Of a stretch of DNA of 33,865 nt, positions 26,034 through 29,367 are shown piece by piece (the stretch's first letter is position 1; each line of letters starts with the position of its first letter). The notes under the pieces were generated by a model. The model worked only from the letters and a program-made list of their open reading frames with translations, made no database searches and was not told the DNA's origin. The DNA comes from a virus, in the IMG/VR virus record IMGVR_UViG_3300006162_000006, positions 1 through 33,865 of that record; one strand, given 5' to 3'. Made by a program: the position numbers and the translations under genes.

Positions 26034-26591
26034 TTATCCTGCCTGTTCAAAGTCGGTTATTTTAAGTTGGTCGTGTTTTGGTTTATAATTCTTTAGATTA
26101 GACGCGCGCCTATTTTTTAGATTTTCACTATGGGTAGTCCAGCGACAATTATCTTTTGAATAACCCTTATTATTATCTATGCGGTCAATTTCAAATCCTT
26201 TTGGTCGATCTCCCATATCTGCATAGAAGTTCTTAAAATCCTTCCATTCTTCGCAAATTGTTATTCCTCGACCACCATAATATTCAAATTTAGTATGATT
26301 TGGATTTGTCGTTCTTTGCATTATACATTCCCAAACGGCATATGTTAGCGAGCGTGACATTTTATGTTTTGAAGATCCACAAGTTCTACATTTTAATGAA
26401 TCACCAAATCTCAAACGAATTCCCTTTAATATACGTTGAAATCCACATTTACATTGTACCAAATAATGTTTTCTTTTTTCAGCCATTTTGACCTCATTAA
26501 TGACAGTCCAATCACCAAAAACATCACCAGGATTTATAACTTTTTTGCAATTTGCTCCAATAGACTCCCCAGAATTAATTACATCATTCAT
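26034..26591 (-). CDS. HNH homing endonuclease, phage type with zinc ribbon, 185 aa
   Basis: Free-standing HNH nuclease placed just before the intron-rich capsid gene but on the opposite strand. Residues 47-71 form a zinc ribbon (C47-x-C49 ... C68-x-x-C71). Residues 83-162 have the phage HNH layout: 'YAVWECIMQRTTNPNHTKFE', 'YYGGRGITICEEWKDFKNFY', 'GFEIDRIDNNKGYSKDNCRW' and 'ENLKNRR'. The D-R-I-D and N-C-R-W motifs form the active centre. Start ATG 26591 with AAGGATAATTGC upstream. Such enzymes spread themselves by cutting genomes that lack them; the target may lie in or near the capsid gene. Confidence 0.85.
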   Translation of the reverse strand: MNDVINSGESIGANCKKVINPGDVFGDWTVINEVKMAEKRKHYLVQCKCGFQRILKGIRLRFGDSLKCRTCGSSKHKMSRSLTYAVWECIMQRTTNPNHTKFEYYGGRGITICEEWKDFKNFYADMGDRPKGFEIDRIDNNKGYSKDNCRWTTHSENLKNRRASNLKNYKPKHDQLKITDFEQAG

Positions 26592-26797: not shown

Positions 26798-29367
26798 ATG
26801 TCAATTACTACTACAAGTAGTTTACCGGCGCCAGTTCAGCAAAGCTTTAGTTATAAGTTGCTTAGCGTCCCGGTTCCGAACATGATTCATTGCCTGTAAG
26901 TTGTGAATCGAAAACCCTCTCTGATTGACTTGGATCTCCCACTGGGACGACAAGGCGGAAGCGAAAGCACCGTGAACGACTAAGCGAGAGGGCGCTTTAA
27001 AAAGCGATGCGATAGTCTGAACTCTATGGCAACATAGAGAAGTTGGATCGAAGAATCTGACTCGCCTAGCAATAGGTCATAAAAGTAACAGAATGAAAAT
27101 CCCGGCGATGAAAAAAAATATGCCTAGGAATGGTGGAACAACGCTCAGGATGCGTAGATACAACCCATTAAATACTGCCATGGTTCCATTAGGAAATAGC
27201 GGTGTCACGCCTAGAATGAGTGGGCGTGTAAAATCTTCTCTGATAGACTTGGAAACCGTAGTGACTAATTAGTTAACCGGCGACAAGGGGCAAGATTATG
27301 AGTTTTTTATCAAATTTTTTAACACAGCAAATGATATCAAAAATTGTTAATAGCAGTAGAAAACAAAATAATCAGCCTGAACGTAGTAAGCGAGAAGACC
27401 CTTATGATAATTGGAAAGCTCCTCAAGAAAAATGCTTCCATGAATATCCTAACAATACGGATAGTTATAGATATTTTTCACAACGTGGCTGCCGATGTAA
27501 AAGGGATGCGGTACTCTGAACATTGTGGAAACACAGTGAGGGATAAGTAGAGAAAGTCCCCGCCTCGTATGAGGTCATAAAAGTAACAGAATTGCCTCCA
27601 CAAAACTTAACTGCAATAGATATCGATGCTAAGATATCGTTTTACGGTAAATAATAGGTGCCGTATGAGTTTATCTGATTAAGACCTATGTACAGATAAA
27701 CGAGCAGGTTAATTTGGCCTGCTTTAAACCCACTCTGATTGACTTGGACCTCCTTATAGGAAGACAGGGCGGAAGCGAAAGCACCGTGAACGACTAAGTG
27801 AGAGGGCGCGAAAGCGAAGCGATAGTCTGAACTTCATAGTAATATGAAGAGGATTCTCCGAAGAGGGAGTCCCGCTCGAAAGAGTCATAAAAGTAACAGA
27901 TTTGCACATTACAAAATCAAGACCCTAAAATGAATGGGGTCGTTAAATCTTTTCTAATTGACTTGGAAACCGAAGCTTAAGAGCCGGCAACAAGGGCCAA
28001 TGACAAGATTTAAGGATTATTTTTTAAAGGATGCAAATGACAACGAGAATTGAGTTTACGACTAGCCAAAACACATTCATTGCGAATGGCAATAGATTCA
28101 TCAGAGAGTTTATTGCTTCCAAGTTTTGTGGAATAGGTTTTTCTAAATTTTATCATATTCTCACAATGCTCTTTTTTGATAACAAGATATGGAAGTATTT
28201 GTTCACATATATCAAGCAATCTATCTCCAGTTGCAATCCAAGTGAAAACTTCTCTTTCAAATTTTTTAGAAGAAGTATATCTGGAAACAGCCGAGGCAGT
28301 GCCACTAAATATATTATCAAGCCACTCCATCAATTTATAATCAGTGTTATCAATTTTAAGCAAACCTCTAAAATGTTCGGTGACATAACCATCACCAGCC
28401 TTTTTAGGTATTTTTCCAAGCCAAAAGCATCCTTCACCATCAACAATTCCAGCCATATAAGCAAGATCACTTTCTTTATGAATTGTTGGTACAAAATCCT
28501 TAGATCTACGGTAATATTTTCTTCGTTCTTTCATAATATATCCTCTATAATTAAACAAAACTACGGTATAATTATACACGAAGCAAAATTACTAGTCAAG
28601 GCTGAACGACTAAACGAAAAGACTTCTAGAAATAGAAGATGCGATAGTCTGACCACGATTCGATAAGATCGTGAGGGAATGCCGAAGAGCTTCCCCGCCT
28701 AGAAATAGGTCATAAAAGTAACAGAATGGTTCTCAATGAGTGCGCCGCTCGTTTAGGCGTATCTCTCCGCCAAACAGAAGATCAATTAACGCGTGATATG
28801 CTTGCATCTACCGCGTCATTTATCAACTGTACTGGTGGTGTTAATGGTGATAATCCTACTGAAATTACTCGTTCAGATGTTGATACGGTAGTTCGTACAC
28901 TTCTCAACAACAATGCTTATACAATTATGGATAACATTGAGGGTGAAGATAAGTTTGGTACTGCACCAGTTCGTGATGCGTACTTTGCTTTGTGTTCTAC
29001 TCAACTTACGGGCAACTTAGACAACGTTGCTGGTTTCATTCAAAAGAACCAGTATCCGGCGCCTATGAATGCTTTACGATCAGAGTGGGGAGCTATTGGC
29101 AACTTAAGATTCCTTATTTCTAGTATTGGGTCTTTTTTTGCTAATGCTTCGTCTTTAGGGCAAAACGTGTACAACATCTTTTGTGTTGGCATGGAGGCTT
29201 ATGCTTGCATCGAACAAGATGGATATAGTGCGGCATTCATTTACAGACCACCAATTTATGATGGTCCATTAGCGCTCAACGTCAGCGTTGGGTACAAATT
29301 TGCTGAAGTTCCACGGATCACTAATGATCTTTGGGTGATTAACCTTCGTGCAACCCAAGCGGTTTAA
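26798..29367 (+). CDS. Major capsid protein, N4-gp56 family, interrupted by four group I introns and a 35-nt insert (spliced 316 aa)
   Basis: Exons by reading frame plus P1 pairing are 26798-26890, 27096-27212, 27595-27648, 27684-27709, 27905-27926 and 28729-29367; together 951 nt, 316 codons plus stop. The spliced protein begins MSITTTSSLPAPVQQSFSYK. It runs through 'NMIH|KIPAMKK', 'GNSGVTP|PPQNLTAIDIDA', 'SFYG|TYVQINEQV' and 'NQDP|VLNECAARLG', and ends in 'YDGPLALNVSVGYKF'. These are the conserved blocks of the N4-gp56-type HK97-fold coat family, in the right order. All breaks fall in the conserved N-terminal third, the usual target of homing introns. AAAGGA precedes the ATG. Removal of the 35-nt segment by splicing is inferred from the frame, not proven. 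Confidence 0.88.
26891..27095 (+). ncRNA. Group I intron 1 (205 nt, no ORF)
   Basis: Self-splicing ribozyme. P1: exon GATTCAT (26884-26890) pairs with GTGAATC (26903-26909), with U.G at the splice site. P3: CCCTCT (26915-26920) with AGAGGG (26987-26992). P7: GACTA (26978-26982) with TAGTC (27013-27017). P8 hairpin lies between, with a P9 hairpin after. The 3' end 'TAAAAGTAACAGAATG' ends in G. Shares a 31-nt core block (26954-26984) exactly with intron 4. Confidence 0.93.
27213..27594 (+). ncRNA. Group I intron 2 (382 nt, ORF over the core)
   Basis: P1: exon CACGCCT (27206-27212) with GGGCGTG (27222-27228), U.G at the splice site. P3: CTTCTC with GAGAAG (27392-27397). P7: AGTA in 27384-27390 with TACT near 27512, a compensated change compared with intron 1. 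The 3' end is 'TAAAAGTAACAGAATTG'. Its 5' part matches intron 5 ('GACTTGGAAACCG', 'CCGGCGACAAGGG'). A 73-codon ORF lies across P6-P8. Confidence 0.9.
27298..27519 (+). CDS. Intron 2 ORF, small Cys/His protein overlapping the ribozyme core, 73 aa
   Basis: ATG 27298 lies 7 nt after AAGGGG. The frame runs from the P6 loop through P7 5', P3' and P8, and stops with the TGA inside P7 3', so the DNA is used both for ribozyme and for coding. The product starts MSFLSNFLTQQMISKIVNSS; the C-terminal part (CFHEYPNNTDSYRYFSQRGC followed by RCKRDAVL) has a Cys-His ... Gly-Cys-Arg-Cys pattern resembling short Cys-rich ORFs of mobile phage elements. It may be a maturase-like helper, a decayed endonuclease or fortuitous. 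No full nuclease motif is present. Confidence 0.5.
   Translation: MSFLSNFLTQQMISKIVNSSRKQNNQPERSKREDPYDNWKAPQEKCFHEYPNNTDSYRYFSQRGCRCKRDAVL
27649..27683 (+). other. 35-nt core-less insert with group I-type guide sequence
   Basis: Splits the capsid frame between Gly (GGT, 27646-27648) and Thr (ACC, 27684-27686). It is not a multiple of three and contains TAA and TAG in frame. ATAGGTGCCGTA (27654-27665) is complementary to the joined exons TACGGT+ACCTAT in 11 of 12 positions. The single exception is the G.U at the splice position that every group I P1 needs. GTTTATCTG (27669-27677) is also complementary to CAGATAAAC of the next exon (27693-27701). The insert ends in G, as group I introns do. 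No P3, P7 or P9 can fit, so any splicing must use a core elsewhere. Confidence 0.75.
27710..27904 (+). ncRNA. Group I intron 4 (195 nt, no ORF)
   Basis: P1: exon AGCAGGT (27703-27709) with GCCTGCT (27717-27723), U.G at the splice site. The core block 27768-27798 is identical over 31 nt to intron 1, followed by P3' (GAGAGG), a P8 hairpin (GCGCGAAAGCGAAGC region) and P7 3' 'GATAGTCTGAAC'. 3' end 'TAAAAGTAACAGATTTG'. Splits the codon for Val (GT|C). Confidence 0.92.
28010..28534 (-). CDS. LAGLIDADG homing endonuclease encoded antisense inside intron 5, 174 aa
   Basis: Start chosen at ATG 28534 with AGAGGAT upstream; the frame is open 15 codons further but without a start signal. Residues 24-35 (LAYMAGIVDGEG) are a LAGLIDADG helix, followed by 'CFWLGKIPKK' and, later, 'LLKIDNTDYKLMEWLDNIF' and 'WIATGDRLLDICEQILPYLV', the usual alpha/beta fold. 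One motif at this size means a homodimer. It should cut intron-less capsid genes near the exon 4/5 joint. It is read from its own consensus promoter on the strand opposite to the capsid gene, so its transcription does not depend on the capsid mRNA and may even oppose it. Confidence 0.9.
   Translation of the reverse strand: MKERRKYYRRSKDFVPTIHKESDLAYMAGIVDGEGCFWLGKIPKKAGDGYVTEHFRGLLKIDNTDYKLMEWLDNIFSGTASAVSRYTSSKKFEREVFTWIATGDRLLDICEQILPYLVIKKEHCENMIKFRKTYSTKLGSNKLSDESIAIRNECVLASRKLNSRCHLHPLKNNP
28571..28599 (-). promoter_or_regulatory. Promoter of the intron endonuclease
   Basis: Read leftward: -35 TTGACT (28594-28599), 17-bp spacer, -10 TATAAT (28571-28576). The -10 sits in GTATAATTATACAC (28566-28579), identical over 14 nt to the palindrome at the RHH promoter (4630-4643). 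Confidence 0.8.
28729..29367 (+). CDS. Major capsid protein, exon 6 (C-terminal 212 aa)
   Basis: Longest exon of the N4-gp56-type coat. It enters directly after the G of intron 5 at GTT (VLNECAARLGVSLRQTEDQL); the ATG three bases upstream belongs to the intron and is not a start. It contains the conserved 'LTRDMLASTASFINCTGGVN', 'AYTIMDNIEGEDKFGTAPVR', 'LRSEWGAIGNLRFLISSIGS' and 'YSAAFIYRPPIYDGPLALNV' blocks. Uninterrupted up to TAA; the next structural gene follows after AAGGAG. Confidence 0.93.
   Translation, partial: VLNECAARLGVSLRQTEDQLTRDMLASTASFINCTGGVNGDNPTEITRSDVDTVVRTLLNNNAYTIMDNIEGEDKFGTAPVRDAYFALCSTQLTGNLDNVAGFIQKNQYPAPMNALRSEWGAIGNLRFLISSIGSFFANASSLGQNVYNIFCVGMEAYACIEQDGYSAAFIYRPPIYDGPLALNVSVGYKFAEVPRITNDLWVINLRATQAV

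Follow-up and report, generated by a model that had tools for sequence, protein, structure and literature searches.

A probable core-less satellite intron among the group I introns of a phage capsid gene

Known small introns and the capsid locus

The nearest natural relatives of the element studied here are the degenerate group I introns of fungal small-subunit (SSU) ribosomal RNA (rRNA) genes, i.e., those of Phialophora (PaSSU), Arthonia and Porpidia, which are 56-81 nucleotides (nt) long (PMC3160393). One of them, of 67 nt, has been described as the shortest intron for which group I activity is demonstrated; for splicing in vitro, it needed about 300 nt of RNA around it (PMC3160393). The nearest known reaction is engineered trans-excision splicing, by which segments of up to 28 nt have been removed in vitro (PMC4094466). 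Here, we analyse the full 33,865-base virus record IMGVR_UViG_3300006162_000006 (the window), whose capsid gene begins at position 26798 and is interrupted by four large group I introns as well as a 35-nt element. From its sequence, this element, which we call the mini-intron, is probably a core-less satellite intron that is removed by the group I core of its neighbour.

The fungal introns and the mini-intron have in common a P1 pairing with G.U at the splice site, a P10 pairing, a pairing between the middle of the intron and the 3' exon, and the loss of most core helices. They differ in that the fungal introns have a proposed P7, end in U in the Phialophora cases, reside in rRNA genes and include one reported to self-splice, whereas the mini-intron and its homologs measure 28-41 nt, have no P7, end in G, reside in a phage protein gene and keep a fixed geometry relative to the full intron next to them. 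Engineered trans-excision-splicing ribozymes and spliceozymes are similar in that their group I core cuts an internal piece out of another RNA via P1 and P10 (PMC4094466). These are man-made and act in trans, while the reaction considered here would be natural and in cis, and the recognition strands sit on the removed piece. Discontinuous, trans-spliced mitochondrial group I introns are likewise distributed over separate RNAs; in their case, it is a single core that is divided between two RNAs (PMC3873408), whereas here one complete core would act for two introns. The bypassing element of T4 gene 60 also interrupts a phage gene with a short non-coding stretch but, unlike it, the mini-intron has no matched take-off and landing codons and does have P1, P10 and a last G.

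The first-pass annotation of the window had stressed its tiny exons. These are striking, but there are near precedents, namely a 23-nt exon in the three-intron gene orf142 of phage Twort and a 34-nt exon between two introns of Coxiella 23S rRNA (PMC10136302). In both cases the two introns have their own cores and the oddity is exon skipping rather than a core-less intron. Four introns per phage gene and a 22-nt exon exceed Twort only modestly. The four large introns amply illustrate a kind of intron that is known already, and the 35-nt element is the most unusual part of the gene. It had been treated as a mere insert, a view we replace by that of a recurrent core-less mini-intron tied to the next intron. 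A search of the open-access subset of the literature gave no case of a natural intron cut out by the group I core of its neighbour, which is weak evidence of absence; phage group I surveys and the literature on natural trans-excision and on mini-introns do not describe the arrangement within that same subset.

The mini-intron, its pairings and its downstream neighbour

We compared the gene with 79 untruncated relatives, which were selected solely by similarity of the 3' exon, i.e., without regard to the insert. An insert of 28-38 nt is present at the identical codon (after nt 264, ...TTTTACGGT) in 19/79 relatives. A pattern search raised the total to 46 distinct inserts of 28-41 nt, and a 47th was found behind a slightly different upstream exon. 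The last nt is G in 46/46 inserts. All 46 also contain a stop in the entry frame and therefore must be removed. The same architecture is seen repeatedly in many metagenomes. On the tree, the mini-intron is scattered (18 changes, at least 5 of them forced by well-supported branches), and such a distribution fits an element that spreads together with a mobile partner. Two kinds of candidates were discarded: an exact search with the window's insert returned one unrelated 186-kb contig with a chance 18-mer, and seven or eight matches to the pattern of P1 and its internal guide sequence (IGS) outside capsid genes were set aside as chance, having neither exon, P10 nor guide.

Among the 79 relatives, a downstream group I intron is found in 19/19 genes with the insert versus 15/60 without it (Fisher test, 2e-9). 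More generally, a full group I intron follows every insert for which the downstream sequence is readable. On the other hand, introns at capsid nt 290 exist without the insert (L153, L155, L161, L172). The dependence apparent from the sequences is thus one-sided and satellite-like, i.e., the insert is not seen without the downstream intron but the intron is seen without the insert. Introns at nt 350 were confirmed in five of seven loci, where the reading frame picks up again at RQTED; for the remaining two loci, which make up one distinct case, the available sequence did not show the exon that follows.

Beside this dependence, the parts of the mini-intron, their pairings and the covariation of these can be read from the aligned sequences. 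All 46 inserts have a P1 with U.G at the 5' splice site; in 32 sequences, P1 is 100% paired and yet invariant. The exon codons that form it read TACGGT in 16/16 genes with the insert, compared to 7/49 genes without. P10 is formed by the three to five nt that precede the IGS and the first nt of exon 4. Here, the insert base that faces the last base of the Thr codon is G for ACC, U for ACA, A for ACU and C for ACG, such that this third (inner) pair is Watson-Crick in 46/46 inserts, as G-C, U-A, A-U and C-G. Shuffling yields a mean of 23.8 and a maximum of 34 in 20,000 trials versus the 46 observed, relatedness being ignored. The pair changed at least 7 times on the 3' exon tree.

The third helix is formed by a guide that as a rule begins 2-4 nt past the IGS and pairs with exon 4. 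Its exon target adjoins the P1 of the following intron, no matter whether that intron is located at nt 290, 312, 314 or 350. Since this P1 covers eight nt, guide helix and P1 abut. The guide matches differ accordingly by downstream intron, i.e., ACAAATAAAC and variants for nt 290, TTACAAAATCAG for 314, CTCCAAAAC for 312 and GTCTTGGT for 350. In eight cases of the 290 class, judged by eye, a one-base bulge or mismatch leaves a short uninterrupted guide run. Within this class, guides score 8.22 against their own exon versus 5.58 when permuted (maximum 6.41; 0/5000, ignoring relatedness).

Taking the three helices together, 96.1% of the cells are paired in 32 sequences of the 290 class, compared to 34-44% when the strands are slid against each other, and 58 cells with double changes are counted versus 17 in shuffles. 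The guide helix, i.e., the pairing of mid-intron and 3' exon, shows double changes in 6/9 pairs. Without prior constraints, RNAalifold recovers P1 and the guide helix, and the minimum-energy single-sequence fold of the window contains both of these plus the partner's P1. With its U.G-bearing P1, P10 and last G, the mini-intron carries hallmarks of a group I intron. Once P1, the P10 strand and the guide are assigned, 3-10 nt are left over. No catalytic core (P3, P7) was found in any of the 46 inserts given these 3-10 nt, nor is there room for a P7 of the fungal small-intron type. We therefore do not class the core-less mini-intron as an autonomous group I intron.

Table 1. Positions of the exons, introns and pairing elements of the capsid gene within the window (ORF, open reading frame).
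Feature	Position	Strand	Description and basis
Capsid exon 1	26798..26890	+	93 nt, ATG start; spliced alignment, protein matches intact relatives
Group I intron 1	26891..27095	+	205 nt, without ORF; RF00028 E=3e-4, covariation with 17 other introns
Capsid exon 2	27096..27212	+	117 nt; spliced alignment
Group I intron 2	27213..27594	+	382 nt; spliced alignment, common 3' end AAAAGTAACAGAATTG
Capsid exon 3	27595..27648	+	54 nt, 3' end TTTTACGGT; spliced alignment
Mini-intron P1 5' strand UACGGU (exon)	27643..27648	+	U.G at splice site; partner IGS GCCGUA 27660-27665
Core-less mini-intron (putative)	27649..27683	+	35 nt, last nt G, in-frame stop; recurs in relatives
Mini-intron P10 strand AGGU	27656..27659	+	pairs with ACCU 27684-27687; covariation of inner pair
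Guide GUUUAUCUG	27669..27677	+	pairs with CAGAUAAAC 27693-27701; covariation, fold predictions
Capsid exon 4	27684..27709	+	26 nt: P10 partner, guide target, then at its end GAGCAGGU, the P1 strand for intron 3; spliced alignment
Partner group I intron 3	27710..27904	+	195 nt; covariation alignment
Intron 3 IGS GCCUGCUU	27717-27724	+	pairing analysis of intron 3
Intron 3 P3	27729-27735/27800-27806	+	P7 27792-27796/27823-27827; P2 absent
Capsid exon 5	27905..27926	+	22 nt; spliced alignment
Group I intron 4	27927..28728	+	802 nt; spliced alignment, common 3' end
LAGLIDADG-type endonuclease ORF in intron 4	28010..28579	- (antisense)	Pfam LAGLIDADG_1, phrog_5046
Capsid exon 6	28729..29367	+	639 nt, remainder of protein; PHROG 1357 major head protein, E=1.6e-14

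Proposed excision and competing explanations

From these patterns, we infer that the mini-intron is excised, that the neighbour's core acts as the catalyst and in which order the steps occur. It would be a group I intron of which the substrate parts remain, i.e., P1/IGS, P10, the last G and the guide. That an outside core catalyses both steps is suggested because the downstream intron is obligate and because of the guide geometry. First, the downstream intron (27710-27904) would fold, with the guide helix stacking end to end on its P1. The guide helix would play the role of P2, and the mini-intron's P1, three nt away, would be within reach of the neighbour's core. Second, a guanosine in the neighbour's P7 would cut after GGU, and the freed exon 3, aligned by P10, would attack after the mini-intron's G such that the 28-41 nt are released. 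Third, with the guide lost, the neighbour's own P1 would dock and the neighbour would excise itself normally. It is also fairly likely that the inserts form a natural class of catalysis-free satellite introns of 28-41 nt, which spread with and are excised by a neighbouring group I ribozyme while the guide evolves to fit the downstream intron.

Several observations weigh against this account. The invariant P1 is backed by its fit and by codon fixation without covariation, and its letters were fixed in one of the pattern searches. For the 350 class, permuted guides did as well in 1471/5000 trials, the exons being too alike to discriminate, and the permutation tests ignore relatedness. A P9.0 was not identified in the mini-intron. 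Furthermore, mini-intron, exon 4 and partner may have been inherited as one co-converted block, which would explain part of the linkage, but co-conversion leaves the maintained complementarity and the re-aiming to four sites unexplained.

Among the alternatives, the one that survives best, although unlikely, is excision by a freed intron that acts later in trans, or by another intron, with the guide merely tethering or blocking exon skipping. Twort and Coxiella offer known examples in which an exon between group I introns is skipped (PMC10136302). However, the P1 that the guide adjoins is always that of the closest intron downstream, which implies the presence of both in one precursor.

It is improbable, too, that the mini-intron self-splices with a minimal fold of its own and flanking exon, like the 56-81 nt fungal rRNA introns. 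The Phialophora introns combine P1, P10, P7 and a mid-intron/3' exon pairing, and the 67-nt one splices in vitro (PMC3160393). A further point against catalysis by a neighbour is that the fungal small introns are reported to splice using their own short P7, i.e., by a self-contained mechanism. In the mini-introns, though, the 3-10 spare nt of 28-41 are too few for a P7, and self-splicing leaves the constant downstream intron and the re-aimed guide unexplained.

We see very little chance that the insert is bypassed by ribosomes through programmed hopping, known from T4 gene 60 and the mitochondrial byp elements, even though the insert is short, hairpin-forming, non-coding and placed within the coding frame. 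In these known cases of bypassing, the take-off codon equals the landing codon. Here, the take-off codon would be GGU, while none of the inserts ends in a Gly codon. We rejected bypassing for this lack of a matching landing codon; nor would it predict the covariation of P10, the invariant last G or the link to the downstream intron. Least credible is a decaying pseudogene with inserts as debris, as might be suggested by 312 nt of coding sequence being interrupted five times. We rejected this reading given that the exons, when joined, are intact and each of them shows mainly synonymous differences, the record holds a single capsid gene and the architecture recurs across many metagenomes.

Large introns, relatives and implications

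Exon and gap coordinates were derived from a spliced protein-to-DNA alignment against intact relatives, independently of the first-pass annotation. It yields five gaps within the capsid gene, which sum to the 1,619 nt of intron and insert given before, and the same six exon sizes and joints (Table 1). The exons join to 951 nt without a stop, in line with the proposed restoration of the frame, and the resulting protein aligns with intact relatives over its full length. That the interruptions have to be removed to make the coat protein is thus upheld. Compared to 37 intact relatives, codon differences are mostly synonymous in each exon, with 174 synonymous versus 33 non-synonymous differences in the 26-nt exon and 138 versus 2 in the 22-nt exon. 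Judged by these differences, the capsid protein is under strong purifying selection. An intact second capsid gene, by which the first-pass annotation would have been overturned, is not present in the 33,865-base record, nor is any other copy.

The common 3' end reported for four places corresponds to TAAAAGTAACAGA, which occurs exactly 4 times in the record, always on the + strand and at an intron end, while the reversed control has 0 copies. All four large introns are preceded by an exon T and terminated by G. In the suggested covariance-model search, Rfam RF00028 misses all four at gathering score, i.e., this model lacks the sensitivity needed in this case, while a focused scan aligns intron 1 (E=3e-4). 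We built a covariation alignment of 18 short introns from the capsid gene and its relatives. Of the window's introns, it contains 1 and 3; 2 and 4 were assigned to group I by shared sequence. P3, P4, P6, P7 and P9 covary, with 99.1% of the cells paired versus 37-55% when slid, both-side changes in 18/26 pairs and 0/500 shuffles reaching these values. P3, P4, P6 and P7, including the P3/P7 pseudoknot, are found in the large introns, whereas P2 is absent, i.e., the 3' strand of P1 is followed by a few A/T-rich bases and then P3. On this covariation, the four large introns are settled as group I introns, as first proposed.

Intron 2 contains a 73-aa sense ORF (27298-27519) without a significant family match in a Pfam scan, perhaps the remnant of a lost insert. 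For the ORF of intron 4, LAGLIDADG_1 (E=3.4e-4) falls just short of the Pfam cut-off, and the match to the phrog_5046 endonuclease has E=5e-21. Intron 3 of the window has no endonuclease ORF, while most nt-290 partners, with intron lengths of about 670-880 nt, have one; the pair of mini-intron and partner in the window may have lost its mobility. An HNH endonuclease ORF (26034-26591, - strand; PHROG 374, E=4e-48) lies just 5' of the capsid gene, outside the introns.

At least one intron is found in the region in 42/79 relatives and none in 37/79. The 5' third of the capsid gene is an intron hot spot because these 42 relatives are interrupted at about 15 sites. Four large introns, as in the window, are the highest number observed, and several relatives have three. 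In the loci L005-L084, the about 15 group I positions are within capsid nt 26-350 and the remaining 600 nt are intron-free, but these loci were picked for an unbroken 3' exon. Apparent introns at nt 7-8 in a third relative set are alignment artefacts from a divergent N-terminus. LAGLIDADG-type ORFs are mostly antisense in introns at nt 290, 312 and 314 and sense at nt 36/38; for nt 290/312, they were seen in L005, L011, L029, L045, L058, L064, L079, L105, L122 and L142.

A scan of a genome collection returned four relatives, from bins labelled Simkaniaceae, Parachlamydiaceae, Thermotoga and Saccharibacteria; the one that was read is intronless. Close capsid relatives are located in Simkaniaceae and Parachlamydiaceae metagenome bins (L178, L179), one of them on a 35-kb contig. 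Provided that the binning is correct, environmental chlamydiae might serve as hosts.

If the proposed excision holds true, this would be the first known natural group I ribozyme that removes an intron not its own, and mini-introns of 28-41 nt would be among the smallest introns known. The 46 natural variants make the guide rules immediately testable in vitro, and the arrangement offers a two-cut design for cis-splicing that is ready for use. Stop-containing inserts of about 30 nt in the genes of metagenomic phages are not necessarily errors or pseudogenes. Finally, if the account is true, the mini-introns would be a tangible stage between introns that splice themselves and those that rely on machinery from elsewhere; such a stage is often invoked to explain how spliceosomal introns arose.
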